Shown: piece after piece, positions 11,276-49,036 of the stretch
Position numbering within the stretch: the stretch's first letter is position 1
Layout of the letters: each line of letters begins with the position of its first letter
NCBI RefSeq assembly: GCF_025685655.1
Contig: NZ_JAGSYG010000001.1
Span: 1,426,001-1,490,000, forward strand
DNA: 64,000 nt
From: Acidicapsa ligni
GTDB lineage: Bacteria > Acidobacteriota > Terriglobia > Terriglobales > Acidobacteriaceae
Direction of reading: 5' to 3'
Made by a program: the position numbers and the translations under genes
Notes under the pieces: model-generated
Database searches by the model: none
What the model saw: the letters and a program-made list of their open reading frames with translations, nothing else
What the model was told of the DNA's origin: nothing

Positions 11276-11290
11276 TTGAAGTCAATCCAA

Positions 11291-11364: not shown

Positions 11365-11369
11365 CCGCT

Positions 11370-14911: not shown

Positions 14912-14996
14912 GTGTCTCCTGCCCATGTGAGAACCTCGATCAAATTTGAAGCCGCGCAAGGTTTCCAGTAAATCCTTGCGCCTCGAGGGCGGGCGT

Positions 14997-15728
14997 ATGA
15001 AGATCGTTGTCGTCTCTGATATCCACGCCAATTTGGCTGCCATCAAGGCCCTTCCCGAAGAGAACTACGACTCGCTTTGGTGTCTTGGTGACCTAGTGGG
15101 TTATGGTCCTCGCCCCCACGAAACCATAAGGTGGGTGGACATACATGCCTCTGCAGTTGTCCGTGGCAATCACGACCACGCTGCAGGTTTCAACGTAACG
15201 CCGGACTGCTCTCCACCTTATCGCAGCCTAGCTGACGCTACGCGCCACTACACCCAAGAGGTCTGCACCAAGAACGACTTTGCGTTTCTACGGGAGCTGC
15301 CTCTCCGGAAGCAAGTCATCATCGACAAAACGAAGTTTCATCTCGTTCATGCGGTTCCATCGGATCCTTTGTTTGGATACCTCGCGGAAGACTCGGATCA
15401 GTGGTCCAACGAGGTGCAAAGGATCGATGCTGATGTTCTGTTTGTCGGCCACACTCACAAACCTTTTATTCGGCAAATCGACAGTTGTGTCGTCGTTAAT
15501 CCGGGCAGCGTGGGACAGCCGAAAACAGGCCGCCCACTCGCCTGTTACGCCGTATGGGAAGACGGCCGGCTCGCACTCAAGGAGTACGAGTATCCGATCG
15601 AAGAGACGATCGAGGAGATCTCCCAGATGACAATTTCGGAACGGGATCGGCGCGCACTGACCTCGATTCTACTGACCGGTCAACTCGCTACTAACGGCGA
15701 CATGATGGGGACATTCATCGGCTCTTAG
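14997..15728 (+). CDS. Metallophosphoesterase, calcineurin-like (copy 1)
   Basis: 243 residues; I chose the ATG at 14997 because the metal-binding SDIHAN motif then sits at residues 7-12 as in the family. Further motifs: GDLVGYGP, RGNHDHA and VGHTH. These bind the dinuclear metal centre that hydrolyses phosphoesters. A close paralogue (same SD-HAN, GDLV-YGP, VVRGNHDHA-GF blocks) starts at 63629. The short gap of 35 bp to cfa copy 2 suggests an operon under riboswitch 4. The physiological substrate is unknown. Confidence 0.9.
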   Translation: MKIVVVSDIHANLAAIKALPEENYDSLWCLGDLVGYGPRPHETIRWVDIHASAVVRGNHDHAAGFNVTPDCSPPYRSLADATRHYTQEVCTKNDFAFLRELPLRKQVIIDKTKFHLVHAVPSDPLFGYLAEDSDQWSNEVQRIDADVLFVGHTHKPFIRQIDSCVVVNPGSVGQPKTGRPLACYAVWEDGRLALKEYEYPIEETIEEISQMTISERDRRALTSILLTGQLATNGDMMGTFIGS

Positions 15729-15763
15729 GAGCCATGCTGAGTCATTTCATAAAGGAGCGTTTG

Positions 15764-21686: not shown

Positions 21687-21804
21687 TTGCTGCTCGGCTC
21701 AAATAAAACCGTCAGAGCGCGTTGGCATCAGGAAGCAGTCTGTTCTAAACCAGAAGCTTGACTTTCAAACTCGAGAACAGCTACGCTTCCCATGATGATC
21801 GGAC

Positions 21805-21885
21805 GGTGATGGAATCCACCGGAACCGCTGATGTTTCCCGCAGAGAGATCAGCTGATGACTCCTATGAAGGTTTCTTCAAGGAGC
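21805..21885 (+). promoter_or_regulatory. Fluoride riboswitch 6 (translational type), upstream of a leader ORF and cfa copy 3
   Basis: P1 GGTGATGGAATCCACC, GGAACCGC, arm, ATCAGCTGATGACTCCTATG. CTCCT-TGAAG pairs with CTTCA-AGGAG across one bulged A (21860-21884), hiding the AAGGAG in front of the ATG at 21892. A promoter TTGACT (21758-21763), 17 bp, CTACGC (21781-21786) is possible; its -10 is weak. Confidence 0.92.
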
Positions 21886-21891
21886 GCGTCT

Positions 21892-21966
21892 ATGCCTATT
21901 TCTGTGCCCGGCTGCATCATCCTCATTTCAGCTTCCGTAAAGTCTACTGTCTGCGTGGGAGGTTGA
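21892..21966 (+). CDS. Short leader ORF (24 residues) coupled to cfa copy 3
   Basis: ATG at 21892 has an AAGGAG 7 bp upstream that is the sequestered strand of riboswitch 6. The ORF encodes a hydrophobic 24-residue peptide beginning MPISVPGC and ends with TGA at 21964-21966, one base before the cfa3 ATG (21968). The cfa3 SD (GGGAGG) lies inside the end of this ORF, so ribosomes translating the leader would open or re-initiate at cfa3. The role is inferred from layout; the peptide itself may have no function. Confidence 0.5.
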   Translation: MPISVPGCIILISASVKSTVCVGG

Positions 21967-21967
21967 A

Positions 21968-23296
21968 ATGCCCACCTCTCAGGCTTTCTTGTCTTCTTCT
22001 GATACTGAGACAGCGACCCGCTCGCTGCCGGCCAACTTCCGCCATTACGCGGGGCCGCACTTCTCGTTTCGATTCTGGGACGGATCGATCTGGAGTTCGT
22101 CCTGCCAGCCAGCAACATTCATCATTTCGTTCCGGATTGAGGGTGCCTGGCAACAATTCATATCCTCGGCGAGCGACACCGCTGTCGCGGACTCTTTCAT
22201 CACCGGAGAAATAGATGTTGAAGGAGACCTCTACACGGCGCTTCGTTCGTACAGGCTTATACGTGAAACGAGCGGTGGGGGTACTCACGCAATCATCCGC
22301 CGCGGGATTCGAACAGCCGAGAACCTGGCGATGCACGTTCGCACGTTTCTCCATCTCCGGCAGCAACGGGCAGTGGTCTCATCTTCCATTCGCCCCGAAC
22401 GTCCTTATGAGTTTTACCGGCTGTGGCTTGGAAGCTCTATGGTCTTCTCTTCGGCGTATTTCCAGACACCTGAAGAAGACCTGAATCATGCGCAGGAGAC
22501 CGGACTTGAACGAATATGCAACAAGTTGCAGCTAACCAAGACCGATCGGTTTCTGGACCTCAATTGCAACTGGGGAAGCCTCCTTCTACACGCGGGAGCA
22601 TTTCACGAAACCCCGTCCCACGGGTTTTCGCAAAGCAACGAGCAGCTTACGACCGTCGAACTGAGACTTGTCGAGACCGGGCTCACTTCTCGTTGCGCTG
22701 TCCATCGTGGAACGTACAAAGATCTTCAGGAGGTCCGAGTTCCATTTACCAAGATCGCGAGTGTTGGGTTTACGGAACTGGCATTGGACGTTCAGCATTT
22801 GGATTACTTTCGGAGCATCTATCAGAAGCTGAGTCCGGGGGGCCTCTTTCTGGTTGATTTTGTTACGAGATCCTCTTCGCCGCTCGACCTTGAATTCGAA
22901 ACAGGCTCGGGCTTCGCGTATCGCACCCTCCCGAAGCTTTCTCTAATTCTTGAGTCTGTAGAGAAGGCGGGTTTTGTCATTGCGAACATTGAGGAACTGA
23001 GAGATCAATTCGAAGCGACCCTCCGTCTTTGGTTTAGTGCCCTAGCGAAACATCGGCACGAATTATCGCGAATGACATGTCGAAGGTCGGTGAGAGCATG
23101 GGAGCTTTGTTTGGCTTGTGCCGTGGAATCGACACGAGCGGGTCAAATATCGCTTTATCAGATTTTGCTGAGACGGCCACTTGAGTATTCTCCTCAAAAG
23201 GAGGCCTCTGCTGCGGCGTCCCAAGCAGGCGGCGACCTCTATCCGCTGCCGGACAGCATGCCGGTTCGAGCAAGACGCGAAACTGGAAGTTGGTGA
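21968..23296 (+). CDS. Degenerate CFA-synthase homologue (copy 3), probable pseudoenzyme
   Basis: 442 residues, full length and uninterrupted, with recognisable similarity to copies 1 and 2 over the whole protein (FRFWDGSIW, VADSFITGEIDVEGDLYTA, WLGSSMVFSSAYF, NWGSLLLHAG). Key residues are changed: the SAM motif DIGCGWGS reads DLNCNWGS, HHYD is lost, YSCAYF is FSSAYF, the EHVG motif is TELAL, and FLNHGI is FLVDFV. The residues corresponding to the bicarbonate Cys, Glu and His of E. coli Cfa are therefore absent. It may be a regulatory or structural subunit of the other copies. Confidence 0.8.
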   Translation: MPTSQAFLSSSDTETATRSLPANFRHYAGPHFSFRFWDGSIWSSSCQPATFIISFRIEGAWQQFISSASDTAVADSFITGEIDVEGDLYTALRSYRLIRETSGGGTHAIIRRGIRTAENLAMHVRTFLHLRQQRAVVSSSIRPERPYEFYRLWLGSSMVFSSAYFQTPEEDLNHAQETGLERICNKLQLTKTDRFLDLNCNWGSLLLHAGAFHETPSHGFSQSNEQLTTVELRLVETGLTSRCAVHRGTYKDLQEVRVPFTKIASVGFTELALDVQHLDYFRSIYQKLSPGGLFLVDFVTRSSSPLDLEFETGSGFAYRTLPKLSLILESVEKAGFVIANIEELRDQFEATLRLWFSALAKHRHELSRMTCRRSVRAWELCLACAVESTRAGQISLYQILLRRPLEYSPQKEASAAASQAGGDLYPLPDSMPVRARRETGSW

Positions 23297-35384: not shown

Positions 35385-35939
35385 CTACCGATATAACCCT
35401 CTCTGCCCGGCCAAAAACTCCGCGGCGTGGCCCAGGACGCCCCACCCCGCTCCCTCGATGTCTACCCCTTGTTGCTCCTGCAGACTGCGGATGAGCTTAT
35501 CGCGGTAACGGGCAACCGCCCTATCGATCACAGGCGTATGAACCAGCGAGACCTGTTTCCGCAACTCAATGCTGTGCGGAATACATATCTCCCCATAGGT
35601 GTTCAGCCAATGCACCGTTGATAGTGTCTTGAAGGAAGCGCTGACCAGTCGAAGCTGTGTCCCATCTTCCTTAGCCAGCCGCAGGCAGATATCACAATCC
35701 ATGGTACCCCCCAGCGACGCAGAAGAAAGCAGGTTCAGAAATACCTGAGACGCATCGAGACGATCATGGATCGCCGCGATTGCCCATGCGTGAAAGTTAC
35801 AGATACCCTTGGGCCTGGGGTCTAGACTCGCCTGTACACACTTGGCCTGATAGTTTCGCATGTAACGGCAGAGCGGGCAGCCAGGTCCCGCGATGGCATC
35901 GAAAACTGACCGGTAAGGCTCGATTTTATGAGGCCTCAT
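35385..35939 (-). CDS. DUF6062-like Cys/His protein
   Basis: 184 residues. The pattern GCPLCRYM, GICNFHAW, DCDICLRL and GEICIPHSIELRK (CxxC and CxxH pairs) is that of the DUF6062-type metal-binding proteins. The same arrangement (CTICG, GFCQLH, SCPMCEQ, SCLYHL) forms the C-terminal domain of the dynamin-like GTPase at 45481. It lies 97 bp behind the CLC-F gene. Function unknown; the Cys and His residues probably bind Zn or another metal. Confidence 0.6.
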   Translation of the reverse strand: MRPHKIEPYRSVFDAIAGPGCPLCRYMRNYQAKCVQASLDPRPKGICNFHAWAIAAIHDRLDASQVFLNLLSSASLGGTMDCDICLRLAKEDGTQLRLVSASFKTLSTVHWLNTYGEICIPHSIELRKQVSLVHTPVIDRAVARYRDKLIRSLQEQQGVDIEGAGWGVLGHAAEFLAGQRGLYR

Positions 35940-36036: not shown

Positions 36037-37812
36037 TTAGTCGTCGTCGCCCTTCTTCATAAAACTCTCCGAGTGCTCAATCTCGAGAGCTGCTTCCAGC
36101 TCTTCCTTCTCTATCTCCGCTTCGTACTTCGCCTCTTCTCCTCGCAGAAAGACGGTGCGAACGGTCTTGAGATGGTCGCGATTGTGTTTCAGGAACGATT
36201 GCAAATCCTCTTCCTCGCCTACGAGCTCCAAACACTGCGGCAACCGCGCTGGAGGCATGTCGCTTGTGTCCATGACTAGATCCTGGTTCTTCAGGTATCC
36301 ACCGATGACCCGATGCAGAAGAGCCTGCTCGATCCCATGGTCTTTCGCCTGGCGAAGCAAATAAGCGCCGAGACTCTGAGGTGCAAGTTTCTTCCACCAC
36401 GAATCGGCACGCCGCATCTCCGATGCGGAAAAATAGAGCCTGAGTACACTGAGATGATCCATACGACTCCCTTCCATAAAACCGAAATTATCGATCTCCG
36501 CAAGGAGATCGTCATCAGGTCCTTCTCGCATCTTTGCCACCAACGCGAGTGACATACCTTCCTCTGCGGAATGATCGAGGTGTTTACTGCGACCGACGCG
36601 CTGCGCATGATAGATGCCGGCGTGCCCGGAAAACAGGTAGCTGACCACACAGGCGATTCCCGCATAGGCACCCGCTTCCGGCCCAAAGAGTTCCATCGCC
36701 ATCAACGTCGATGAGATTGGAGTATTTGCTGCCCCGGCGAAGACGGCAACAAATCCCATCGCCGCGAGCAAAGACGAAGGCAAAGGCAGAATGTGGGACA
36801 GCGCGTTACCTAAGGTGGACCCGATGAAGAACAAAGGTGTAACTTCACCACCCTTGAAGCTGGCACCGAGCGTGACCGCGGTAAATGCGAATTTGCCGGC
36901 AAAATCATAGACGGGCAATTTGCTATTGAAGGCGGCCACGATCGTCGGTATGCCAAGACCGATATATTTCGTGGTTCCCAGGCCGAAGACGGCAGCGGTG
37001 ACGATCAGGCCTCCGACAAACGGACGAAACGGCGCCGAGGCGATGTATTTCCGAGCAAGGTGGGAGACTGCGTGCGTTGCCTTCGCAAACGCCATACCCA
37101 CCAAACCGAAAGCCATGCCTGCAACCATCGAAGACAAAATGCCGATGATGTTCAGTTGGGGAACGTTGGTCACATGATAAATCGTGTGGTGGACGCCCCA
37201 GGCTTTGGTTACGAGGTCTCCGATGAAGGCTGCGATAAAGCAAGGACCGATAGCGTCGTAGCTGAGTTTGCCAATCGCGAGCACTTCGATTCCAAAGACT
37301 GCGCCCGCTAGCGGCGTTCCGAAAACAGAGGCAAAGCCTGCGCTGATACCGGCCATCAGGAGAATACGACGATCGCTGTCGATCATCCGGAACGGCCGTG
37401 TGAGCTGGTCTGCGAGCGAAGCTCCGGTTTGAATAGCCGTGCCTTCTCGACCCGCCGAACCACCAAAGAGGTGCGTCAGGATCGTGCCGAGAAGAATGAG
37501 CGGCGTCATGCGGATGGGGATAACCGCGCGCGGATCATGAACCTCTTCGAGGATCATGTTATTGCCGGCTTCAACCGTACTGCCGAAATACTTGTACAGG
37601 TAACCTACCAGCAGACCAGCAGGCGCAAGGAACAGAATCATCCAGATGTGCTTCTCGCGAAAGTCCGTAGCCCAAACAAGAGACACAAGAAGAAATGCTG
37701 ATGCTGTCCCACCCATGACACCGGCAAGCGCGGCGGGGGGGATCCAGCGGACCAGATCGATAAGGAGCCGAAACTGCTCGCCCCATACTTTTCTAAATGG
37801 TATTTCAGGCAA
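36037..37812 (-). CDS. eriC: CLC-type fluoride/proton antiporter (CLC-F/EriC-F) with DUF190-like C-terminal tail
   Basis: 591 residues from a TTG at 37812, whose SD AGGAGG is the sequestered strand of riboswitch 9. Residues about 20-420 are the CLC membrane domain with roughly ten helices; the filter/gate motif reads GGSAGREGTAIQTGAS. GREGT with Thr rather than Pro, and residence behind a fluoride riboswitch, fit the CLC-F clade that exchanges F- for H+. Instead of CBS domains, residues about 465-575 resemble DUF190 (VLRLYF, HGIEQALLHRVIGGY, ARLPQCLELVGEEEDLQSFL). The C-terminus is acidic. Confidence 0.92.
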   Translation of the reverse strand: MPEIPFRKVWGEQFRLLIDLVRWIPPAALAGVMGGTASAFLLVSLVWATDFREKHIWMILFLAPAGLLVGYLYKYFGSTVEAGNNMILEEVHDPRAVIPIRMTPLILLGTILTHLFGGSAGREGTAIQTGASLADQLTRPFRMIDSDRRILLMAGISAGFASVFGTPLAGAVFGIEVLAIGKLSYDAIGPCFIAAFIGDLVTKAWGVHHTIYHVTNVPQLNIIGILSSMVAGMAFGLVGMAFAKATHAVSHLARKYIASAPFRPFVGGLIVTAAVFGLGTTKYIGLGIPTIVAAFNSKLPVYDFAGKFAFTAVTLGASFKGGEVTPLFFIGSTLGNALSHILPLPSSLLAAMGFVAVFAGAANTPISSTLMAMELFGPEAGAYAGIACVVSYLFSGHAGIYHAQRVGRSKHLDHSAEEGMSLALVAKMREGPDDDLLAEIDNFGFMEGSRMDHLSVLRLYFSASEMRRADSWWKKLAPQSLGAYLLRQAKDHGIEQALLHRVIGGYLKNQDLVMDTSDMPPARLPQCLELVGEEEDLQSFLKHNRDHLKTVRTVFLRGEEAKYEAEIEKEELEAALEIEHSESFMKKGDDD

Positions 37813-37816: not shown

Positions 37817-37885
37817 CCTCCTACGTTCTGTAGGAGTCATCAGCACCGGCAGAGGAGCCGGGCGGTTCAGGCGAACCCCATCGCA
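37817..37885 (-). promoter_or_regulatory. Fluoride riboswitch 9 (translational type), controls the CLC-F antiporter
   Basis: Minus strand: P1 GGCGATGGGGTTCGC-like stem (here GCGATGGGGTTCGC), CTGAACCGCC, a long arm, GGTGCTGATGACTCCTAC. CTCCTAC pairs with GTAGGAG across AGAAC, masking the SD of the antiporter. Promoter: TTGACC (37928-37933), 17 bp, TAAACT (37905-37910), start near 37898. Confidence 0.94.
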
Positions 37886-37992
37886 TGAGGATTTTTCAAG
37901 CCCAAGTTTACATTGCCGCATAGGCATGGTCAACGATGCCTGCAGCCAATTTGTACTTCGCATCGATATTCGTTCTCCCTTCTCCGCTACAG

Positions 37993-38760
37993 TCAATTTG
38001 CTACCTTAGAGATCGTTCCCCCTGGAGCGCCTCTCATTCTGAAATCGAGATACAGGATGTGAACCTTAATCTGTTCCTCGAGCCGGTATTGCGGCAGTTT
38101 GGCCATCTCGATCATCTGCACGATTGCACCCGGATTCCCGTGGCTCATCTCGACCATCTCGTGTAAGGCCGAATCGAGATTTGCGGCCACGAGTTTGGCG
38201 TCCACCGCACGGTGGCGCGCAAACTCCAGGGCGACGACCTCTGGCCAGTTTTTGAGTTCGAGCCGCTCGCTTTTGTCAGAGCACAGAGAGCGCAACGAAC
38301 CAATTTCCTCCATGTGTTGCGATCGAGCGGCGAAGATGATGGGCGTTCGTCCGTAGTAATTCAATTCCTTAATCAGGTGACTGAGCGCCATCGTCGGACT
38401 CTGCACGTGATCGATCACTAAAGTTCGATTGCCAGTTTCCAGGCCCCTCTGAGCGATTCCCTTCAAAGAGAGAACACTCAAACCCTGAGGATTCTTCACA
38501 CGGACGGCTTTCGGCCCGCGTCCTCGCTCCAAAGCATCTATCAACGCGAGCAGAAACTCGCGCGGCGCATGGCCCTTGGCGACGTACAGAATATCTTTGT
38601 CGCCCGTAGCAAGCTGCTGAAGAAGGCGGGTTTTGCCCACTCCCTGGTCTCCGAAGAGCAGCAGGGATTTTCGCTGTGTGATTCGCTGGCGAAGATGGAC
38701 GAGTTCCGCCGATCGCTCCAGGAGAGCATCGCTGCTGAATGGTGTCAGGAGTTTCGACAT
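37993..38760 (-). CDS. AAA/STAND-like ATPase
   Basis: 255 residues from the ATG at 38760, which has AAAGGAG upstream; a longer open frame only reads the riboswitch. Walker A GDQGVGKTRLLQQ at about residues 38-50, Walker B-like TLVIDHV, a sensor-like PIIFAAR and a C-terminal helical lid (SHGNPGAIVQMIEMAKLP). This matches small TniB/ORC-like AAA proteins or STAND NTPase cores. No partner domain is present. It is separately controlled by riboswitch 10. Biological role unknown. Confidence 0.65.
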   Translation of the reverse strand: MSKLLTPFSSDALLERSAELVHLRQRITQRKSLLLFGDQGVGKTRLLQQLATGDKDILYVAKGHAPREFLLALIDALERGRGPKAVRVKNPQGLSVLSLKGIAQRGLETGNRTLVIDHVQSPTMALSHLIKELNYYGRTPIIFAARSQHMEEIGSLRSLCSDKSERLELKNWPEVVALEFARHRAVDAKLVAANLDSALHEMVEMSHGNPGAIVQMIEMAKLPQYRLEEQIKVHILYLDFRMRGAPGGTISKVAN

Positions 38761-38762: not shown

Positions 38763-38871
38763 GGCTCCTTTGGATTGCCTGCGCAGGAGCGACGCAGCCT
38801 CCTACGGTCGTAGGAGTCATTAGCCTTCCATTTCGGAGGCGGTCCGGAGAGCCGGGGCGGATTCCATCGCC
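38763..38871 (-). promoter_or_regulatory. Fluoride riboswitch 10, upstream of the AAA ATPase
   Basis: Minus strand: P1 GGCGATGGAATCCGCC, then an unusually long CCGG-rich insertion, ACCGCC, arm, AAGGCTAATGACTCCTACG. CTCCTACG pairs with CGTAGGAG; a second pairing, GCTCCT with AGGAGC, encloses the SD at 38764-38770. No T-tract, so control is read as translational with two consecutive hairpins. Confidence 0.88.
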
Positions 38872-38939
38872 AGTTAAAGAGGTAGCACAGTACATCCAGG
38901 CTCCGCAATGAGGTAGCAGGTTGGTGGCGGAGGTGGAAG

Positions 38940-39219: not shown

Positions 39220-40896
39220 TCATTGATTTAGGAGGTACACACAGGATCGAGCAGCCTGAAGCTTGTTCCACATCCCAACGTCGCTGCATGGCGCTTCCAG
39301 GGACTCCGCGAGCGTTTGGCGAGCGTCTTCAATCTGCGATGTGAGAGAGCGTTCCAACTGTAGAAAGCTTCGTTCCATCCGTTCCAGATAATCGAATCGA
39401 ATGCGTCCCGAGTTCCGGTCGAGCCTATCAGGGATACTGGCCCTCGCGCGTCGAAATACGAGTGGGCGCTGCAGCAACGGAGGGACTGCGAGAAGAAAGC
39501 TGTCCAGCGAATAAAAGATTCGTTCGATCGAATACGACACCCTGCTATCCATCGCTAAGCCACAGTTGACCTTCAGTTTCGTCACTGGCAGGTCGGTGAG
39601 CATACCAATACCCTCTGTCAGCGTACTTAGAATCTGATTTGCTCTTGCCGTATATCTCGAGACAATCTCGTCCAGCATCGCTGACATCTGAGCGTCTTCC
39701 CGCATTCTCCAATCGCGAAAGATCGTGGTGATCTCCTTATTGAAGAACTCCTCCAGAAGGAGGCCCAACGAGCGGCCCGAGGAAGAGGGATTGGCCCGTT
39801 GCAGGCTCGATAACCGCTCCTCAAGATAGGGCGTCGACATCCTTACGTGCGTTTCGAGATCCGTGCCAATCTTTTGCATCAAGCCCTGCTGTTCTTCGCG
39901 AAGTAAGGCTTGGATAGCAGCTCTACCTCTCGTCGTTTCTTCCAGCAGAAGTTGCATCGCCATTCGTTTCTCATGAATTTGGGATGCGCTCAGCGCCCCG
40001 AAGCTTCGACGTAGCGACAATGCAAACGACGCAAGATCGAGAACCTGCCCGGCGCCTCGAAGGACCGACAAAAGGAGCGTTTGGTCATGGCTGTACGTGG
40101 CAAACTCACGCAAATGATCTATGAAACTCGCCAATCCTGACGAAGGTGCTTCACCCGGGCCGCGAGTACGAGTTGTCAGCGGAAACACGTCGAAGTGCGA
40201 TAACCCTAGTCGGTTCCCGAGTTCGTTCCGCAAAAAGGTGCACGCATCCTCAACATCCGCCTTCGAGACCAGATCGACTTTGTTCAGAACGAAGAAAAGC
40301 TTGGGTATGTCTTTCCGGAGCTCCCGGATAAAGTTCGCTTCGACTTCGGTGATAGGAGGATCGACAGAGAAGACAACAACCGCCGCGTCCACTTTTTCCA
40401 GGTACCCGAGGGTTGCGGCAGTATTGTGCGAGTACGTGGATCCGAAACCTGGAGTGTCAACGAGGACAAGACCATTCCGCAAGAGTTCGTTGGGATAAAG
40501 AAGATGGAGCGCGAGTACCCGCTTGCGATTCCCGGGATTCCTCAACTCTGTCACATATTCGGGAATATCAAAGAGGGCTATCTCTTCCAGGTTGCCACTC
40601 TGGTAGCGAACGCTGGCTTTCGGGGTCGATCCATATCGGATTTCGGTGACGACAGAGGTCAGGGGTAAGACGCCGGTTGGCAGGATGCTCTCCCCGAGCA
40701 AAGAGTTGAGTAAAGAGCTCTTGCCTCGTTTCATCTGTCCCAGAACCGCAAGGCGGACTTCGTCCGTCCTGAGCTTTTCCTTAAGACCGACGATGCGCGG
40801 GAGCAAACGCCGAAGCGGAGTAGCTTCGAAGATCGTCGAGATCTCGTCGAGAAGAGCCTCCATGGCCGCCTTGCGATCTGTTCTCTTTTCTCCCAC
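39220..40896 (-). CDS. Dynamin-like GTPase 1
   Basis: 558 residues from a GTG at 40896 (the ATG at 40863 is an alternative). G1 motif GQMKRGKSSLLNSLLG (G-x4-GKS), the dynamin-type switch region LPTGVLPLTSVVTEI, G3 VDTPGFGS and G4 NKVDL. Long helical segments follow, with a moderately hydrophobic region (SLDSFLLAVPPLLQ) that could be a membrane paddle. Bacterial dynamin-like proteins remodel or protect membranes. GTPase transition states are mimicked by fluoride-metal complexes. It is in line with crcB and two DUF190 genes under riboswitch 11. Confidence 0.88.
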   Translation of the reverse strand: MGEKRTDRKAAMEALLDEISTIFEATPLRRLLPRIVGLKEKLRTDEVRLAVLGQMKRGKSSLLNSLLGESILPTGVLPLTSVVTEIRYGSTPKASVRYQSGNLEEIALFDIPEYVTELRNPGNRKRVLALHLLYPNELLRNGLVLVDTPGFGSTYSHNTAATLGYLEKVDAAVVVFSVDPPITEVEANFIRELRKDIPKLFFVLNKVDLVSKADVEDACTFLRNELGNRLGLSHFDVFPLTTRTRGPGEAPSSGLASFIDHLREFATYSHDQTLLLSVLRGAGQVLDLASFALSLRRSFGALSASQIHEKRMAMQLLLEETTRGRAAIQALLREEQQGLMQKIGTDLETHVRMSTPYLEERLSSLQRANPSSSGRSLGLLLEEFFNKEITTIFRDWRMREDAQMSAMLDEIVSRYTARANQILSTLTEGIGMLTDLPVTKLKVNCGLAMDSRVSYSIERIFYSLDSFLLAVPPLLQRPLVFRRARASIPDRLDRNSGRIRFDYLERMERSFLQLERSLTSQIEDARQTLAESLEAPCSDVGMWNKLQAARSCVYLLNQ

Positions 40897-40934
40897 GAAT
40901 TTGGTCTCGCTCTATCACTGGTGCCAGCTAGGGG

Positions 40935-41279
40935 TTACGCCTGAGAGGAGGCGGTGTAAAGAACAACATGCACATCGGAGATCGCCACAATCCCTTCAGC
41001 GACCATGGAATCGAGATGCGGTAGCAAGGAATCCACCTGCAGCTGAGTATCGATCACGCTGACCATGATGGGGGCGTCTTTGGAGAAGGGCCAACTCCTT
41101 GCATGATGGACTCTGGCACTGGTCCCGAAGCCCTCCAGGCCCCGATACACGGTTACGCCCGCAATTCCCAACTCCAGACACTTGGCGAGAATCGCTTCAT
41201 GTACCGGTTTGTCATGCCACTTGTCGGATTCACTCAAATGGATACGCACCATCTTGGCTTCAAACTCCTTCTTAGCCAT
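40935..41279 (-). CDS. DUF190 protein, single domain
   Basis: 114 residues from the ATG at 41279 (AGGAAGG upstream). Core pattern: MVRIHLSESDKWHDKPVHEAI, GIAGVTVYRGLEGFG and PIMVSVIDTQLQVDSLLPHL. DUF190 has a ferredoxin/PII-like fold and is repeatedly found beside or fused to CrcB; it may sense or gate the channel. It starts 1 bp after the stop of the tandem DUF190 gene. Confidence 0.88.
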   Translation of the reverse strand: MAKKEFEAKMVRIHLSESDKWHDKPVHEAILAKCLELGIAGVTVYRGLEGFGTSARVHHARSWPFSKDAPIMVSVIDTQLQVDSLLPHLDSMVAEGIVAISDVHVVLYTASSQA

Positions 41280-41280
41280 A

Positions 41281-42003
41281 TCAACCTTCCTGTTCTGCCG
41301 CTTCTCCAGGGGCCGTGCTGCCATATCTGTACTTGATGATGTCGACGTCGGAGATAACTGCCATCCCTTCCCGCACCATCTTTTCGAGGATCGGCATAAA
41401 GGCCGAGATGCGATCCTCGACATCGATGACCGAGAGCATCAAGGACGCATTGTGGGACATCGTCTTCTGTTCATGCAACTCTCGGTGAACGCCGTATCCA
41501 AGAATGCCCTTGTAGACGGTGACACCGGCCATCTCATTGGCGCGCAAGGCTTCGACCAACGCCTCGTGGAGCGGTTTATCGTTCCAGCGGTCCGCCTCGT
41601 CGATATAGATGCGCAGCAGTTTCGCCTTACCGGAGACCTTGCGGTGAGGTAGTTCCTCGTCCGTCTTTACCTTCGTAAGCGCAGGCTTTGCAATCAAGGT
41701 TTCCTGGATCTCGATCATTCCTGTGCCTGCGAGTTCCGAGAGTTTGCCCAGCAACTCATCGACCTTCTCTTTGGTCTCGATAAACTCGACCTTTACGGGT
41801 AGACGATCGGACAGTTCGACGGTTGAAGCGGTATGCAGATGATGGTCGACTCCGAACCCGGCAACCCCCTTCAGGACTGTTGCCCCGGCAACCCCACGGT
41901 AAAAGAGGAAATCCAGGATGCTCGCCTCGGTCGCGGCGCCATGATGTCTGGACCCTTCGCTAAGGTAGATCGATACTTTGAGTGCTTTGCCGGCTTCTAA
42001 CAT
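41281..42003 (-). CDS. Tandem DUF190 protein (two copies of the domain)
   Basis: 240 residues from the ATG at 42003 (GGGAGG 5 bp upstream). Two DUF190 units are visible: residues about 1-105 (LKVSIYLSEGSRHHG, GVAGATVLKGVAGFG, LPVKVEFIETKEKVDELL) and about 125-235 (LLRIYIDEADRWNDKPLHEAL, MAGVTVYKGILGYG, SLMLSVIDVEDRISAF). It is 64 bp behind crcB. Fits the known CrcB-DUF190 association and may form an internal heterodimer. Confidence 0.88.
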   Translation of the reverse strand: MLEAGKALKVSIYLSEGSRHHGAATEASILDFLFYRGVAGATVLKGVAGFGVDHHLHTASTVELSDRLPVKVEFIETKEKVDELLGKLSELAGTGMIEIQETLIAKPALTKVKTDEELPHRKVSGKAKLLRIYIDEADRWNDKPLHEALVEALRANEMAGVTVYKGILGYGVHRELHEQKTMSHNASLMLSVIDVEDRISAFMPILEKMVREGMAVISDVDIIKYRYGSTAPGEAAEQEG

Positions 42004-42067
42004 AAACACCTCCCGCTACAGAGCGCATTTGCGATGATGAGTCATGCGCGAGCGCTGTTTTCAGTTC

Positions 42068-42445
42068 TTATGAGAGCGCCTTCGCCAGTGCCACGCCGAG
42101 CGCGACAGAAATCAGTCCAGAGATCAGGCTGACCGCGACATAGAGAATAGCGATCCAAAACGTGCCATGGCTTAAGTTGGAAAATGTCTCCCACTCGAAG
42201 GTTGAAAAGGTCGAGTAGGCTCCGACAAAGCCAATGGGAACCAGAAACCTCCATGACGGGCTCAGATCGGCATGGTGGTTCAGGAACTCAAGAGACAAAC
42301 CGATAATGAAACAGGCTGTAATGTTGATGACCAATGTTCCAAATGGAAACCGTGTGCCCATTCGACCGGCGACCGTTGTGCCAACCCAAAAGCGAGCTGC
42401 GGAACCCAAAGCGCCGCCGATCATGATGAAGAGATACTTCTGCAA
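42068..42445 (-). CDS. crcB: Fluoride channel Fluc/CrcB
   Basis: 125 residues from a TTG (GGAG 9 bp upstream, 3 bp after the GTPase 2 stop). Four hydrophobic helices with the Fluc pattern: IGGALGSAARFWVG, GTLVINITACFIIGL with the conserved Asn, and the FxxF-box GAYSTFSTFEWET. Fluc channels work as antiparallel dimers allowing F- to leave the cytoplasm. It is the only crcB in the window and sits between two dynamin-like GTPase genes. Confidence 0.96.
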   Translation of the reverse strand: MQKYLFIMIGGALGSAARFWVGTTVAGRMGTRFPFGTLVINITACFIIGLSLEFLNHHADLSPSWRFLVPIGFVGAYSTFSTFEWETFSNLSHGTFWIAILYVAVSLISGLISVALGVALAKALS

Positions 42446-42448
42446 GAT

Positions 42449-44578
42449 TTATGCTCCTATCTGTTGAGCAATTTCTTTTGGATCTCTGTAAGAATCCGTC
42501 CATTGCTGCAAAAGTTCAAGATCCTGCTTCATCTTGTTGATATCTGATTCGGCGCTGCTGTGTCCGCTCAGCTCTTGAATCTCGGCGCGGTAACCGTCGG
42601 CGTACGAGCTGATCAAAAGTTCCAGTCGCTGGCTGAATTGCCGCATCCACTGCCAGAGCACGTGACTGTAGTCTTCCAGCTCTTGTTTGAGCAAACGATA
42701 GGTCGCATGATGCAACTTCTTTCGAATCTGCGTTCGCATAATAGACGTTCCGAACGCTGCCCAAATCCCCATGTCGATGTCGGCCGGGAGGGCGGCGATC
42801 TCGAACCTCGGCATATCTCGTAGAAGTGAATCGAGATCCTTCTCGTCGGGAACATCGGCTCTTCCGAGATCTTTGGCGACGCTCTTCAGACGTGATATTG
42901 CGTCCTTTCCAACCTCCCGGGCCGCTGTCGTAAGAGGGTCGATCTGATTGCTGACAGCGGTGTGCAACATCTCAGATAGGTACATCGATTCCAGTCTGTT
43001 CTGTTTTGTTTGGCGAAGCGAACTCGTTGCCTCATCAGCTACTCGGGAAAGAATGGAATCAGCCGAACCTCTAAGCTCATTGACCTGCCGATCAAGCGAC
43101 GCGGCCAACACGCCCACGCGCCCCGAAATATCTCGAAGATCAACCTCTAGCTTGGATAGATCATCAGTGTTTCTACTGTCATGTCTCTCGTGTCTTCCGA
43201 GCCGGGAACGGAGGGTCGAAATCAGGGCTTGTCTCAGCAGTTCAGCCTTCCGGCTCACGGATTCATCTCTGAGCCTGCGCGCCTGCTGAAAACGGGGAAG
43301 AAGCTCCTGCTGGAAAAATCGATCGAGCAAGCCTGCAGAGGCGGGCATGGCACTGACAGCGTGTACAGCGATGTCCCGATGGAGTTCGCGCTTGAGCTGT
43401 TCTTGAATATATGAGATCGCATGCTCCAGGTCCTTCTCGCTGAGGAGATCGGATTTGCTGAGCAGGACGAGCGAAGGAATTCCGGCTTCCTCGATGATGC
43501 GAAGTGTTCCGACGTCCTCTTCGTTGAGTGTGCTTCCAGCGTCGACGAGGACGAGAGCAAGGTCGCAGGACGGCAGGTAGGCGAGTGTTTCGGCGGCTCC
43601 TCGTTTCGCCAGCGAGCCAAGACCTGGGGTGTCAACAAGAACAATTCCCTCACTGAGCCTTTCTGAAGGGACCTGGATCATGGCACGGGCTACATTCTTT
43701 TGATTTCCGGGATTACCTCTTTCAGAGACCAGATCCGCAAACTCCTGAATGGAAACTTCGTGCGCAGAACCGGTGCCGAAGGTCACGACGGCTTTGACGG
43801 CTGGACCATACTGCAGTCTTGTAGGCACTGCTGTGATCGGATTGATTCCAACGGGCAATAGATCATGGCCCAACAATCGATTCAACAGAGAGGACTTCCC
43901 GGAACTGACCCGGCCGAACAAAGCGACCTCGAAGTTATTGTCTTCGAGCCTAGAGATCAAGCCATCAAGACGCGGCCTGAATTCGACCATGCCGTGCCGG
44001 CTGGCGATCTCTTCCACTGTTCGAAGCAGCTGAACCTCGTGGCCTGCTGACTCCAGATGATCAAACCGCACTTTCAGATTGGAGTTCTGCCCCTGATAGA
44101 TGTATGTACTGAGGCCCTCCGAAAGCGCTCTCAACTCTCGGACGACTCCCGTGAGTTCTAGCGCGACCTCTGGCGCAACGCTTCCGGAACCCCGCATTGT
44201 GCTGGGGCGGAGCTCATCCAGAGCGATATCGACGAATGTAGTACGGGTAGTAATGGCTCGGGAGGCGGGTATGGTTGGGGCGGGGATGTCGATGTGTTGC
44301 CACGCAAGCGTCCGGACCAACTGTGTTCGAAGACGCCGAATATAGTCCTCGATCACCCTGATCTGAGCGGGGCTCAGGTCCACAACATACCTGGGAAAGG
44401 GGGACTTTGAGCTTGCCGATTGAAGGATCTCTTCGACGCCCTCTAATAAATCGTCGATGTGCTGACAGCTAACGCGGAGGTACAGCTTCTGTGAGCTGTT
44501 CATTGTTCCCGCCGCCTCCGTGCTCGGAGGCGAAGTATCTTCTGGATCTGATTGCGGATTAGTACCGAATTCCGTCAT
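42449..44578 (-). CDS. Dynamin-like GTPase 2
   Basis: 709 residues from the ATG at 44578 (GGAG 7 bp upstream); a TTG 15 bp earlier is also in frame. An N-terminal helical extension of about 210 residues precedes G1 GRVSSGKSSLLNRLLG, LLPVGINPITAVPT, G3 VDTPGLGS and G4 SKSDLL. Long coiled-coil-like helices follow (LRDISGRVGVLAASLDRQV). It is the first gene behind riboswitch 11 and is followed by crcB after 3 bp. Confidence 0.88.
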   Translation of the reverse strand: MTEFGTNPQSDPEDTSPPSTEAAGTMNSSQKLYLRVSCQHIDDLLEGVEEILQSASSKSPFPRYVVDLSPAQIRVIEDYIRRLRTQLVRTLAWQHIDIPAPTIPASRAITTRTTFVDIALDELRPSTMRGSGSVAPEVALELTGVVRELRALSEGLSTYIYQGQNSNLKVRFDHLESAGHEVQLLRTVEEIASRHGMVEFRPRLDGLISRLEDNNFEVALFGRVSSGKSSLLNRLLGHDLLPVGINPITAVPTRLQYGPAVKAVVTFGTGSAHEVSIQEFADLVSERGNPGNQKNVARAMIQVPSERLSEGIVLVDTPGLGSLAKRGAAETLAYLPSCDLALVLVDAGSTLNEEDVGTLRIIEEAGIPSLVLLSKSDLLSEKDLEHAISYIQEQLKRELHRDIAVHAVSAMPASAGLLDRFFQQELLPRFQQARRLRDESVSRKAELLRQALISTLRSRLGRHERHDSRNTDDLSKLEVDLRDISGRVGVLAASLDRQVNELRGSADSILSRVADEATSSLRQTKQNRLESMYLSEMLHTAVSNQIDPLTTAAREVGKDAISRLKSVAKDLGRADVPDEKDLDSLLRDMPRFEIAALPADIDMGIWAAFGTSIMRTQIRKKLHHATYRLLKQELEDYSHVLWQWMRQFSQRLELLISSYADGYRAEIQELSGHSSAESDINKMKQDLELLQQWTDSYRDPKEIAQQIGA

Positions 44579-44691
44579 GTCATTCTCCGCCAAATTCCGT
44601 CCACACGCTCAATTATTCCTCCAGCCGCGACTTCGCGCCGGAGGATAAGAAGCGTTCGATTGTGAAGGGATCTTGCTGGGGCGAAGAACAT

Positions 44692-44773
44692 CCTCAGCAG
44701 GGGATCCCTGCGAGGAGTCATCATCTGCTCCCCGGAGGGAGCAGCAGTTAAGAAAGGGTGAACTCCTTCACCC
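44692..44773 (-). promoter_or_regulatory. Fluoride riboswitch 11 (GAAGG-type), controls GTPase 2-crcB-DUF190-GTPase 1
   Basis: Minus strand: P1 GGGTGAAGGAGTTCACCC, arm of GCTGCTCC with GGGGAGCAG, then ATGATGACTCCTCGCAGGG. CCTC-GCAGGG pairs with CCCTGC-GAGG across ATC. Promoter with a perfect -35: TTGACA (44815-44820), 16 bp, TATCAA (44793-44798). The GTPase ATG lies 114 bp further on, overlapping the end of a 38-codon frame by ATGA. Confidence 0.92.
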
Positions 44774-44968
44774 GCTAACCATCTGCAACTACTTGATATT
44801 GAGATGCCCGTCTTTGTCAAGAGGGTTCCTCGCTGGGGCAGTTTCTGGTCGAGCGACCGGATCGAAGATTGCGATGTCCAATCCGACGTGATAAACCTCC
44901 GCATGGCAATCAGATACTCGAAACTGCGTTTTGGGGTAGCGATTTGGCTGAATTTCTCGGAGGAGTGA

Positions 44969-45480: not shown

Positions 45481-47190
45481 TCAAATGATGGTTTCGACGA
45501 CCCATGGAGAGGTCACACTACGATGACCTGCGAGCAAAACCATTGCTAACATGGCCGCCTGACGCTCTTCCGCACTGGTCAAGTAGCGCCGCAGCCCCTC
45601 AAATTTGATTGCAAATCTCTGGAGGTCTTCGGCAGTTCGTTCCAATAGACTGGCCTGCGATTGCACCAGCCTGCGCGCAGGCACTTCATCACCCAAGGAT
45701 TTAACCACCATAGACAGGTGATACAAGCAAGAAACTGGCAAATGCTTTTCGTCCGTCTCCTTCCACTGCCGGATCATCTTGACGATCTCTTCGACGGCGC
45801 CTGCCTCTGTAGCGGTTCGTTGTTCACACATCGGACATGAGGTCTTAGTCGGAAGTAGTTTTTGGATGGCCTGATGCATTGCCTCGGTGTCCGCCGACGT
45901 TTTGGCCGCGCGTTGAAGTTCCTTTGCGATTCGGTGCGTGATGGTTGGATACGCTTCGCAGACACCTTGCGGAGACGCTATGGTCTCGTACTGCCACGTG
46001 TGCAATTGGCAAAAGCCGCCTCTTTCGGCGTGATCGCGCTGCACCTCTGGATCAATGGTGAGGTCATATTGATAATGGCTCAGAAACTTAAAACCGGCCT
46101 TCAGGATGATGCCGCAGATAGTACAGCCAGTACTCTTATCCACCTGCAACAGCGGGAACTCAAGGATACTTTCCTCTCCCGGCTCAGGAGCAAATCCCCC
46201 CTCTTGGACGGCAGTTCCAAACATCGCATCTCGCAATGCTCGGAGTCGCTTGACCAATGTCTTCAGAACTTCTGTGCTCTCGGATCCAGTATCGGCGCCT
46301 ATTCTTCGTACAAGCAGCGCTAAAGTCCGCTCGTACATATTTTTTAAGAATGACTGCGCTCGTTCCTCAGTCAAAAAACGATGGAGTTCCTCCTCGAGCC
46401 CCGGCAACCCGCTCTTGTCGAGCAGTTCCGCCTGTTTCGCCATCTTTGCATCCAGCGCCTGTCGTGCCGACACCGAGAACACCGGGGGCATCTCACGGAA
46501 GGAATAGCTCTTTAGTCGCTCTTGTACAAACTGAACGGCCTCCGCGCGCTCTTCGACGTTTACGGTGTCCTGCTTGTTGACCACGACGTAGATTTTCTTG
46601 TCGGTGTTCTTGATTCGTTGAAGGATGCGGTCTTCGTCATCTGTCAACGGGCTCTCGAAACTCGTCACGAGGACGAAGGCATCTGCCTCTGGCAGGAATC
46701 TCTCTGTTGTTAGCGTGTTCTCAACGATGGGGGATCCTAACCCAGGAGTATCCACGAAGAAGAAGCCTCGGCGCAGGATCTCAACAGGCAACTCGATCTC
46801 GGCATAGGCGAGATTCTTCTCATTTCCCGGATTGCCCTTCTGTGTCACGTACGCGGGCAACTCAGAGAGAGGAATCTCTCGGCGCATACCGCTGTTGTTG
46901 AAGTTAAGTACAGCCTGTTTTCGGGTCCCATATCGAACCGTCGTAATCACGGATGTCAAAGGAACGATCCCTGTCGGAAGATGTTCGCCCCCCAGGATGG
47001 CATTCATGAGGGTCGATTTTCCTCGGCTGAACCTGCCCACGACGAGCAGATTGAATTTATCTTCGGCCAATCGGGCTTGGAGAGAGACACATTCCGATCG
47101 AAGAGGCTCGTCCTTTGTATCGAGAGCCCGAGCACTTCTAAGAATATCGGCGAAGCCAAACTTCCATTGCTCGTATTGCTTCAGATCCAT
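45481..47190 (-). CDS. Dynamin-like GTPase 3 with C-terminal DUF6062-like domain
   Basis: 569 residues. GTPase domain about 1-240: G1 GRFSRGKSTLMNAILG, LPTGIVPLTSVITTVRYG, G3 VDTPGLGSP, G4 NKQD. Helical middle, then a Cys/His-rich domain about 355-510: GCTICG, GFCQLHTWQY, SCPMCEQ and SCLYHL. That is the DUF6062-type pattern also seen in the separate protein at 35385. It is 62 bp behind enolase, so probably under riboswitch 12. Confidence 0.85.
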   Translation of the reverse strand: MDLKQYEQWKFGFADILRSARALDTKDEPLRSECVSLQARLAEDKFNLLVVGRFSRGKSTLMNAILGGEHLPTGIVPLTSVITTVRYGTRKQAVLNFNNSGMRREIPLSELPAYVTQKGNPGNEKNLAYAEIELPVEILRRGFFFVDTPGLGSPIVENTLTTERFLPEADAFVLVTSFESPLTDDEDRILQRIKNTDKKIYVVVNKQDTVNVEERAEAVQFVQERLKSYSFREMPPVFSVSARQALDAKMAKQAELLDKSGLPGLEEELHRFLTEERAQSFLKNMYERTLALLVRRIGADTGSESTEVLKTLVKRLRALRDAMFGTAVQEGGFAPEPGEESILEFPLLQVDKSTGCTICGIILKAGFKFLSHYQYDLTIDPEVQRDHAERGGFCQLHTWQYETIASPQGVCEAYPTITHRIAKELQRAAKTSADTEAMHQAIQKLLPTKTSCPMCEQRTATEAGAVEEIVKMIRQWKETDEKHLPVSCLYHLSMVVKSLGDEVPARRLVQSQASLLERTAEDLQRFAIKFEGLRRYLTSAEERQAAMLAMVLLAGHRSVTSPWVVETII

Positions 47191-47252: not shown

Positions 47253-48584
47253 CTATTGCCGCGAGGCCGTTTCCAGTGTCTGCGGTTCTTTACCTTCTTT
47301 CCACCGTTTGTAGACGTGCCTTCCCGCATAGCTTGCCTGGTTGCCCAGCTCGTGTTCGATTTCAAGAAGCCGGTTGTACTTGGCAATACGTTCACCCCGG
47401 CTGGCGGAACCGGCCTTAATCTGGCCCACGCCCGTCGCTACGGCAAGATCAGCAATGCTCGTATCATCGGTCTCGCCGGAACGGTGGGAGATGACCGCGG
47501 TGTATCCATGTTCGCGAGCCATGGCGATGCAATCCAAGGTTTCAGTCACCGTGCCGATCTGATTCAATTTGATCAAGATAGAGTTTGCGATGCCAGACTC
47601 AATTCCACGAAGAAAGAGCTCTGGATTGGTTACAAAGTTATCGTCCCCGACGAGCTGAATCTTGTCGCCCAATTCATTGGTCAGCTGTTGCCAACCGCTT
47701 CGATCATCCTCAGCAAGGCCATCTTCGAGGGACCAGATTTGGGGGTACTGACTTAGCCAATGTTTCCAGAGCGCGATCATCTCCTCTGAGGTTTTTGTGC
47801 TGCAGTCAGACTTGCGAAAGACGTACCCCGTCTCTTCATAGAACTCGCTCGCAGCCGGATCGAGCATTAGCGCAATGTCCTCGCCCGGCTTATATCCAGC
47901 TTTGAGAATGGCCTCAAGAATTAGTTCAATCGGCTCTTCGTTAGACTTGAGTTCCGGAGCGAATCCGCCTTCGTCGCCCACAGCGGTGTTATAGCCCTTA
48001 TTTTGCAGTACAGCTTTAAGAACGTGAAAGGTCTCAACGGCACTTCTTAAGCCATCTCGAAATGATGGTGCGCCGACTGGAGCGATCATGAACTCCTGAA
48101 AATCGACGCTATTGTCCGCATGTCTCCCACCATTCAGTACGTTTAGCATCGGGACTGGCAATAGGTGGCCATGCTCGGTCGCAAGATCCAGGTAGAGCGG
48201 GAGGCCACGGTACGCCGCTCCGGCGCGGGCAACGGCGAGGGAAACGCCCAGGATCGCGTTCGCTCCAAGCCGGGACTTATTGGGGGTGCCATCCAACGCC
48301 CGGAGTTCATCGTCAAGTTCGCGTTGATTGCCTGCATACATCCCCCGCACCTTAGCTGCGATCTCGCCTTCGACATTCGCGCAGGCAACCAGAACACCCT
48401 TCCCCCCGTAACGAGACTTGTCACCGTCGCGCAACTCTACGGCCTCACGCTTTCCGGTGGAAGCGCCAGACGGTACCTTGGCAGTCCCGGTCGTCCCACT
48501 CGATAGCGTTGCCGTTACAGACAGAGTTGGGTTGCCGCGTGAGTCCAGAATCTCGAGGGCTGACAGTTTGGTTATTTCCGACAT
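47253..48584 (-). CDS. eno: Enolase
   Basis: 443 residues from the ATG at 48584 (AAGGTG 8 bp upstream); in-frame ATGs at 48590 and further up cannot be excluded. Converts 2-phosphoglycerate to phosphoenolpyruvate with two Mg2+; the textbook fluoride-inhibited glycolytic enzyme. Conserved blocks: [18 protein letters not shown], the metal site [42 protein letters not shown] and SHRSGETDD. Upregulation through riboswitch 12 would compensate for fluorophosphate inhibition. Confidence 0.96.
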
Positions 48585-48749
48585 TTCCATCACCTTTTCC
48601 AACCGGGCCATCTTCCGGTTTACAAGAAAGTCAGATTGGGAATTGCCCAATCTGCGCACATCCACGCCACCACATGCAGAGCGACCGGTCAAAGACGGAG
48701 GCCTGCAGGTTCCACGCTTTAGATTTTCTTGGGGATCGCGCCGTAGACA

Positions 48750-48835
48750 TGACTCCGCGACAGGATCCCCTGCCAGGAGTCATCATCTGTTCCACCTATT
48801 GGCAAAACAGCGGTTATAAGGTGAACTCCTTCACC
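48750..48835 (-). promoter_or_regulatory. Fluoride riboswitch 12 (GAAGG-type), controls enolase
   Basis: Minus strand: P1 GGTGAAGGAGTTCACC, TTATAACCGC, arm, CAGATGATGACTCCTGGCAGG. ACTCC-GCAGG pairs imperfectly with CCTG-GGAGT. No T-tract. Promoter: TTGACA (48873-48878), 17 bp, TAGGTT (48850-48855). The enolase start lies 165 bp downstream of the hairpin; the intervening 48591-48749 contains only a 39-codon frame of doubtful meaning. 48880-48988 shows no gene. Confidence 0.92.
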
Positions 48836-49036
48836 GCTACACACACCATAACCTAAAGGTCACGGTGAGGCTTGTCAACCAGACCGTCTGATGGAGCGCA
48901 CCGGATCATGCGTTCTTTCGCGGAATATTTCGCATCTCAAGGAGCGCAAGGTCACGCAGGCCGGGATGATGCTAAGTCGTTTCTTCACTTGACAGAGCGA
49001 TCCGAGGCTGCGAGATTTGAAAGACACAATTCGCTC

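Follow-up and report, generated by a model that had tools for sequence, protein, structure and literature searches.

Dynamin-like GTPases behind fluoride riboswitches in Acidobacteriota: candidates for a membrane-related arm of fluoride resistance

The dynamin-crcB operon and a second dynamin operon

The window, by which we mean the whole 64,000-nt stretch of DNA analysed here (Acidicapsa ligni, NZ_JAGSYG010000001.1, positions 1,426,001 to 1,490,000), belongs to a 5.68 Mb genome of the same genus as relative G001 and contains three genes for dynamin-like GTPases in two minus-strand operons, each led by a fluoride riboswitch aptamer. The first operon comprises, in order, the aptamer, GTPase 2, the fluoride channel gene crcB, a tandem DUF190 gene, a single DUF190 gene and GTPase 1, with gaps of 3, 58, 1 and 38 bp between successive genes. 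The second comprises an aptamer, an enolase gene and GTPase 3. Domain searches confirmed all gene positions of the initial annotation, which had been made from the sequence alone, together with its riboswitch-led operon order and a third dynamin after enolase. Aptamers were scored with the Rfam model RF01734 and with an aptamer model of our own, R1. The features of the two operons are as follows.

44705-44781, minus strand: fluoride riboswitch aptamer of the dynamin-crcB operon (RF01734, 27.3 bits; R1, 49.9 bits, E 6e-11)
42449-44593, minus strand: GTPase 2, clade A dynamin-like protein with an N-terminal ND domain (Dynamin_N, E 9.2e-26)
44054-44506, minus strand: ND domain of GTPase 2, about residues 30-180, with free-standing homologues in crcB-DUF190 operons
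42068-42445, minus strand: crcB, Fluc fluoride channel (PF02537, E 9.1e-26)
41281-42009, minus strand: tandem DUF190 protein (PF02641 in two stretches, E 6.6e-54; weakly P-II-like, E 8.8e-10)
40935-41279, minus strand: single DUF190 protein (PF02641, E 1.5e-30)
39220-40896, minus strand: GTPase 1, dynamin-like protein (Dynamin_N, E 1.3e-30)
48767-48844, minus strand: fluoride riboswitch aptamer ahead of enolase and the third dynamin (RF01734, 33.9 bits; R1, 51.1 bits)
48632-48654, minus strand: terminator-like stem between this aptamer and enolase, a possible expression platform (pattern match)
47253-48584, minus strand: enolase, second copy in the genome (domain match)
45481-47190, minus strand: GTPase 3, clade C dynamin-like protein (Dynamin_N, E 6.4e-26)
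45601-46173, minus strand: DUF6062-like Cys/His domain, C-terminal in GTPase 3 (DUF6062, E 6.4e-9)

The leader aptamer of the first operon is legible in the window sequence as GGTGAAGGAGTTCACC ... ATGATGACTCCT. Both operon aptamers score below the Rfam gathering score of 34, and both belong to the R1 training set. GTPase 2 likely starts at the ATG at 44578, and the start of the single DUF190 gene was set at the methionine ahead of its domain, inside a longer open reading frame (ORF). The CRCB domain match of 90.6 bits exceeds its gathering score of 32.9, and channel function is predicted on this basis. Terminator-like stems numbered six in the region by pattern match, as compared with 4.9 in shuffled sequences.

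The initial annotation had also proposed that extra GTPase copies might offset inhibition by fluoride, in which case they would replace inhibited housekeeping dynamins, as the additional enolase and pyrophosphatases perhaps do for theirs. The window does hold an additional enolase and two additional pyrophosphatases, and one enolase and two pyrophosphatases are encoded outside it. However, no Dynamin_N match was found elsewhere in the genome, all three dynamins lying inside the window, and 53 of 61 related genomes lacked any such match at E ≤ 1e-6. Because there is no other dynamin in the genome, unlike the situation for enolase and pyrophosphatase, the spare-copy idea fails and we consider it hardly credible.

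Linkage of dynamins to fluoride aptamers

We examined dynamin loci in three genome samples (relatives, class and phylum), each selected by the presence of a dynamin and not of an aptamer. Eight of the 61 relatives had a Dynamin_N match at E ≤ 1e-6, six of them full-length; the partial matches in G003 and G004 (45 of 168 positions) were set aside. Dynamins were beside an aptamer or within an aptamer island in five of the six, with aptamers above the Rfam gathering score standing ahead of dynamins, whilst in the sixth (G047) the dynamin gene was cut by the contig start. In the class sample of 250 genomes, Dynamin_N (E ≤ 1e-10) was present in 48, representing 25 of 94 genera. Of the 47 such genomes beyond that of the window, three were missed by a stricter model and two held short fragments only. 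Stretches around all 73 listed dynamin clusters beyond the window were examined; after removal of eight ORFs below 450 aa and a truncated duplicate, 97 unique dynamin ORFs of at least 450 aa were left. Within 5 kb of an R1 aptamer lay 85 of these 97, compared with 2.4 expected by chance, and 75 had an aptamer upstream on the same strand within that distance. At least one aptamer-linked dynamin was present in 40 of 42 genomes. The chance estimate is generous in that aptamer numbers per genome were raised (1.5 x + 2) so as to include weak sites, yet it assumes scattered aptamers, whereas real ones cluster in islands. These sequence data indicate that the association of dynamins with aptamers exceeds chance.

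The linkage extended to the phylum sample, in which 36 of 297 genomes and 26 of 167 genera displayed Dynamin_N (E ≤ 1e-12). The 32 dynamin genomes outside the class sample provided 35 loci, and an R1 aptamer (E ≤ 0.005) was identified at 28 of these loci, in 27 genomes. At 21 loci the aptamer lay within 150 nt of, or overlapped, the called dynamin 5' end on the same strand. Four of the 21 (L245, L255, L258 and L267) depend on weak matches: the aptamers at the dynamin 5' end in L245 and L258 reached an R1 E of only 0.002-0.005, each locus having a stronger aptamer elsewhere, and the dynamin frame of L258 is split. Two of the seven loci lacking an aptamer (L243 and L253) were cut by contig ends. 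The five uncut ones (L257, L264 and L270-L272) probably represent other families, because they matched the dynamin model at E 1e-23 to 1e-44, weaker than the E of 1e-68 or better of full-length linked phylum dynamins. As the sampled genomes are related, none of these counts represents independent events.

Aptamer counts were based on R1, part of them being checked with Rfam. R1 was built from 28 aligned aptamers, 16 from the window (14 above the Rfam gathering score and two weaker) and 12 from nine loci of relatives, and is chiefly a sequence profile, since only four base pairs are included in the model. Applied to the whole genome, in which Rfam identified 18 fluoride aptamers (E ≤ 0.001), R1 recovered these 18 sites and none further among the best 150 candidates scored; with 16 of the 18 being training sites, this result speaks to few false positives and not to sensitivity. 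Rfam confirmed eight of nine R1-marked class loci (not L115) and placed 20 of 22 R1-marked phylum loci above its gathering score (not L255 or L267). Neither did it find an aptamer in four phylum loci where R1 had found none.

Beyond the phylum, three of ten plasmid dynamin loci chosen for inspection were aptamer-linked. A plasmid of Lichenicola cladoniae (Alphaproteobacteria) carried crcB and a clade C dynamin in divergent orientation, separated by an aptamer, and plasmids of Burkholderia multivorans and B. cenocepacia carried an aptamer, a small hypothetical protein and then an ND-containing dynamin. The Burkholderia islands also held enolase, two pyrophosphatases, DUF190, MutS and hydrogenase-like genes. 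The other seven loci, from Nocardia, two Pseudomonas, Anabaena, Calditerrivibrio, Paenibacillus and Rhodococcus, encode other kinds of dynamin and had no R1 aptamer at E ≤ 0.01. Co-occurrence of the GTPases with crcB or fluoride riboswitches, as suggested for checking in the initial annotation, was therefore evident for the riboswitch, phylum-wide and on some proteobacterial plasmids, and looser for crcB. Variation independent of crcB was seen in part, some dynamins outside the class having no recognized crcB in the stretch examined, and variation independent of the riboswitch was not seen. By this genomic evidence, the dynamins are tied to the riboswitch more than to crcB.

Dynamin clades, the ND domain and recurrent neighbours

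A tree of 134 G domains placed the linked dynamins in several clades, with weak support for their deeper order. Clade A (43 rows, proteins of about 700 aa) includes GTPase 2, clade B has 38 rows, clade C (22 rows) includes GTPase 3 and the Lichenicola protein, and clade D has 11 rows; GTPase 1 pairs with an Acidicapsa protein. An aptamer lay within 200 nt upstream of, or overlapped, the called start of 38/43 clade A genes, as compared with 5/38 in clade B, 0/22 in clade C and 5/11 in clade D. Clade A is thus the predicted direct target of the riboswitch, most B, C and D genes being placed further down the operon, and 34 of 42 units with clade A also contained another clade.

This arrangement bears on whether the dynamins are passenger genes, possibly antiphage and LeoA-like, that are merely housed in a stress island. 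The best PADLOC match of GTPase 1 is LeoA (E 9.5e-17), and the other plasmid dynamins have helicases, transposases, a methyltransferase or an abortive-infection gene as neighbours. However, the LeoA matches in PADLOC span only part of the protein, and against the NCBIfam LeoA/HP0731 family (NF041922, cut-off 325) GTPase 1 scored 18.4 bits and GTPase 2 16.7, with GTPase 3 unlisted. The context here is one of fluoride and not of defence genes as for LeoA/LeoBC dynamins: besides the aptamers directly ahead of clade A, those at the dynamin 5' end in the 21 loci outside the class include some with no other recognized gene behind them. We therefore consider a passenger role very improbable.

The predicted structure of GTPase 1 (predicted local distance difference test, pLDDT, 77) is a G domain on a long helical stalk that matches known bacterial dynamins over most of its length (IniA, Z 23.5 over 501 residues, root-mean-square deviation 6.0; BDLP, Z 18). 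The GTPase 2 model is of low quality (pLDDT 62.8), and its Foldseek matches are dynamins with low TM-scores. The window dynamins are 558-714 aa long and scored 58.7, 42.4 and 42.5 bits against the two-headed DynA family (NF052648, cut-off 1600). The G1 motif was present in all 134 tree proteins, and G3 and G4 in all 122 outside the plasmid outgroup. At G4, SKxD occurred in 43/43 clade A proteins, and the other 79 comprised 66 NKxD and 13 TKxD; the clade A serine may alter nucleotide choice. Conserved G motifs would suit a model in which the G domain is itself a switch tuned by fluoride: together with aluminium or magnesium fluoride, GDP would mimic the transition state and lock G-domain dimers, and induction and assembly of the protein would then both depend on fluoride. 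Crystals with GDP-AlF4 are indeed on record for G domains of the dynamin family and related ones (entry titles 6djq, 3w6p and 7c1o). Other GTPases would nonetheless be trapped alike, and no sequence specialization was apparent other than the clade A SKxD, making such a switch improbable.

The ND domain occupies about residues 30-180 of clade A dynamins and also occurs in free form as a family of roughly 150 aa. Pfam models did not match any of four ND stretches at E ≤ 0.01. Against NCBIfam, two of three free ND proteins scanned gave nothing and the third gave a weak match to EfeO (17 bits, E 0.0023; cut-off 270), an identity we rejected as reflecting chance or a shared helical shape. An ND model matched 54 of 250 class genomes, including 16 without a Dynamin_N match. 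We opened 20 standalone-ND loci, 16 of them in genomes without a Dynamin_N match, and found an aptamer in 13/20, a major facilitator superfamily (MFS) transporter in 7/20 and crcB plus DUF190 ahead of ND in 11/20. All 11 (L200-L206, L208-L210 and L214; for example L204, 3568-4868) were compact operons in dynamin-less Acidobacteriota, an AAA gene intervening between crcB-DUF190 and ND in L203. Standalone ND also preceded crcB in L085 and L086, at the place of the full dynamin in relatives and, in L085, adjoining a dynamin remnant; it preceded two DUF190 genes in L065 and followed Usp in L087. That ND is a separate gene in crcB operons and elsewhere the N-terminal part of a dynamin is evidence, from gene fusion, that dynamin and channel are functionally tied. 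As a separate observation, L192 (G020:C25, 6745-9798) contains an aptamer with Usp-like frames, an AAA gene and a truncated ND behind it and lacks a dynamin, possibly a decayed dynamin module.

Such a tie could also mean that the dynamins act on Fluc itself, the ND-dynamin clustering CrcB or aiding its dimer assembly and DUF190 being regulatory, with no general membrane role. The ND-dynamin gene stands directly ahead of crcB, 3 bp from it in the window and in the same order in L063, L076-L078 and L080-L083; the 11 standalone-ND operons and the position of DUF190 as the commonest neighbour family point the same way. Against this, in six phylum loci (L238-L242 and L244) the dynamin is the only window-like gene behind the aptamer and no crcB lies in the stretch examined. 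Nor does the clade C dynamin of the window come after crcB: enolase is ahead of it, and ahead of its G001 relative are metallophosphoesterase, cyclopropane synthase and HAD genes. An action confined to the channel is possible, and we judge it rather unlikely.

Recurrent neighbours were counted in 65 genome or contig units with dynamin loci, leaving out the window itself and L084. DUF190 was found in 39 units, AAA in 33, enolase in 27, CrcB in 27, metallophosphoesterase in 22, MFS in 15, HAD in 15, hydrogenase-like subunits in 13, MutS-like genes in 12, a sodium/proton exchanger in 11, pyrophosphatase in 10, Usp in eight, cyclopropane synthase in seven and S-adenosylmethionine (SAM) synthetase in six, all lower bounds because many loci are cut by contig ends. 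The AAA gene, and also the gene of a small Cys/His protein, lie downstream of the dynamin-crcB operon in the window.

38804-38880, minus strand: fluoride riboswitch aptamer ahead of the AAA gene (RF01734, 43.7 bits)
37993-38757, minus strand: AAA ATPase, recurrent neighbour of fluoride-linked dynamins (AAA_22, E 5.6e-6)
35385-35939, minus strand: small CxxC/CxxH protein; in several relatives a homologue separates crcB from tandem DUF190

An AAA homologue was present in five of 61 relatives, four of them dynamin genomes. The small Cys/His family weakly resembles DUF6062 (E 0.0001 to 0.05, some members) and is possibly a metal or redox partner. The small protein of B. multivorans is likewise Cys/His-rich, with a spacing that by eye resembles that of the 35385-35939 protein (19 % identity, no profile match). 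Small proteins with repeated CxxC/CxxH motifs beside fluoride-linked dynamins were observed at window 35385-35939, L122 120-725, L121 6857-7465 and L183 7197-7913.

A possible membrane-related role and the wider fluoride island

The above results support well, at the level of gene order and aptamer placement, both a control of the dynamins by fluoride and a single fluoride-controlled module formed by dynamins together with a changing set of CrcB, DUF190 proteins, an AAA ATPase, and ND and Cys/His (DUF6062-like) partners. The gene neighbourhood is compatible with a dynamin role at the membrane or the channel, and the linkage, seen across soil Acidobacteria and in a few other bacteria, suggests that fluoride resistance has a membrane-related arm not yet described. 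We favour a reading, with a probability of roughly 0.55, in which riboswitch-induced dynamins assemble at the inner membrane, prevent it from leaking during acid and fluoride stress and in this way sustain fluoride export. A membrane role is preferred because the GTPase 1 model matches IniA and BDLP, because bacterial dynamins reportedly collect where a membrane is damaged (PMC8844932, in the text available), because entry of hydrogen fluoride (HF) lowers pH and the proton-motive force on which fluoride export depends (available portion of PMC11139923), and because three cyclopropane fatty acid synthases in the window are aptamer-led.

11283-12680, plus strand: aptamer (11283-11350) and cyclopropane fatty acid synthase (11331-12680)
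14822-18810, plus strand: aptamer (14822-14901), metallophosphoesterase, second cyclopropane fatty acid synthase (15734-17050) and HAD phosphatase
21796-23296, plus strand: aptamer (21796-21872) and third cyclopropane fatty acid synthase (21968-23296)

Cyclopropane fatty acids reduce proton leak. In L113 (4089-5505), a SAM synthetase, which would supply the methyl donor of cyclopropane synthases, was observed behind a weak R1 aptamer (24.7 bits).

Under the favoured membrane reading, fluoride would enter as HF, and the riboswitch would permit expression of the operon, different aptamers presumably switching on operons for different dynamins. The dynamins would then come together in heterotypic complexes, with the stalk tip as their contact to the inner membrane. 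ND could be the bridge between the clade A dynamin and CrcB/DUF190, and the AAA protein might assist in loading or recycling the GTPases, although the contacts among module parts are a guess. Dynamin assembly, alongside the co-regulated cyclopropane fatty acid synthases, would keep the membrane tight under acid and fluoride, and the preserved membrane potential would drive fluoride out through the passive channel. A more specific version, which we put forward tentatively and at somewhat less than even odds, is a new system in which a riboswitch-induced membrane machine of one to four dynamins, the ND adaptor, the Cys/His protein and the AAA ATPase is physically coupled to Fluc/DUF190 and, at the sites of fluoride exit, reshapes or seals the inner membrane.

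Several observations weigh against these proposals. Fluoride aptamers are far commoner than dynamins in the class sample (156 versus 48 of 250 genomes), which makes the dynamins an optional extra. Of the 12 class dynamins that were unlinked, ten lay near contig ends with less than 4 kb of upstream contig, but two of the 97 had ample upstream sequence and no aptamer. CrcB was near a dynamin in only 27 of 65 units, and GTPase 1 lies 3.8 kb away from the aptamer of its own operon. The Lichenicola dynamin is beside its aptamer and not behind it, since the aptamer is on the crcB strand. The GTPase 2 model has a pLDDT below 50 across ND, too poor for fold assignment. Lastly, the plasmid collection searched yielded no AAA homologue and the B. 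multivorans gene ahead of the dynamin is dissimilar to AAA, so AAA was rejected as a universal partner.

The module overlaps with known systems in part. As in the described fluoride riboswitch regulon (RF01734), window aptamers stand ahead of crcB, CLC, enolase, pyrophosphatase, Usp, phosphoglycerate mutase and hydrogenase-like genes, and MutS-like genes lie behind aptamers in relatives; the dynamins, the ND family and the AAA ATPase are the difference. The available text of Weinberg 2010 names mutS, ion transport and formate hydrogen lyase with the crcB motif (PMC2864571), and that of an Enterobacter cloacae FRM paper names ppaC, uspA, eno, gpmA and crcB (PMC5533749). The terms dynamin and GTPase had no match within PMC2864571, PMC7266159, PMC5533749 and PMC11139923. 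Among open-access full texts, a scope that leaves outside the Science 2012 gene list, which could name such genes, no paper linked dynamins to fluoride riboswitches; nor did these texts yield anything on cyclopropane fatty acid, or on DUF190, with a fluoride riboswitch. Reviews, to the extent of their available text (including PMC11139923), present fluoride resistance as export together with regulation and the adjustment of ions and metabolism; they note changes to membrane and envelope and mention no dynamin. With bacterial dynamin-like proteins (IniA, BDLP, Cj-DLP1/2, DynA and SynDLP) the window proteins share the G domain and helical stalk of the GTPase 1 model and the presence of several paralogues per operon; according to the accessible part of PMC6104087, most bacterial dynamin genes are paired in operons, and bacterial dynamins act as heterotypic pairs. 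They differ in the fluoride riboswitch ahead of the gene, in the ND domain and SKxD G4 motif of clade A, and in the DUF6062-like domain in clade C. The order crcB then DUF190 is shared with CrcB-DUF190 operons, whereas here dynamins frame the pair in the window and an ND protein is a third member in dynamin-less genomes.

For these dynamins the trigger is named by the RNA ahead of the gene; to our knowledge, few bacterial dynamins have a known trigger. A cultured species with a like island, Acidicapsa dinghuensis, makes the fluoride response directly testable, and ND offers a handle on the connection between dynamin and channel. A membrane-remodelling arm, if true, would add a layer to fluoride resistance relevant to acid soils with HF entry, and also to engineering organisms that release fluoride.

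The remainder of the window extends this fluoride island. A second type of exporter lies between the AAA gene and the small Cys/His protein.

36037-37812, minus strand: CLC-type transporter behind an Rfam aptamer at 37824-37894 (Voltage_CLC, E 2e-74)

This protein is a probable fluoride exporter on the basis of its domain and aptamer. Its C-terminal part weakly resembles DUF190 (E 3.7e-4, below the cut-off), a hint that DUF190-like domains may serve both fluoride exporter types. Other island genes in the window encode a hydrogenase-like complex, IlvD, Usp, phosphoglycerate mutase, RND efflux, MFS and the two pyrophosphatases. In the fluoride island of G001, a SAM-I/IV riboswitch match of 41.5, against a gathering score of 41.1, was observed on the minus strand (L064, 1024-1141).

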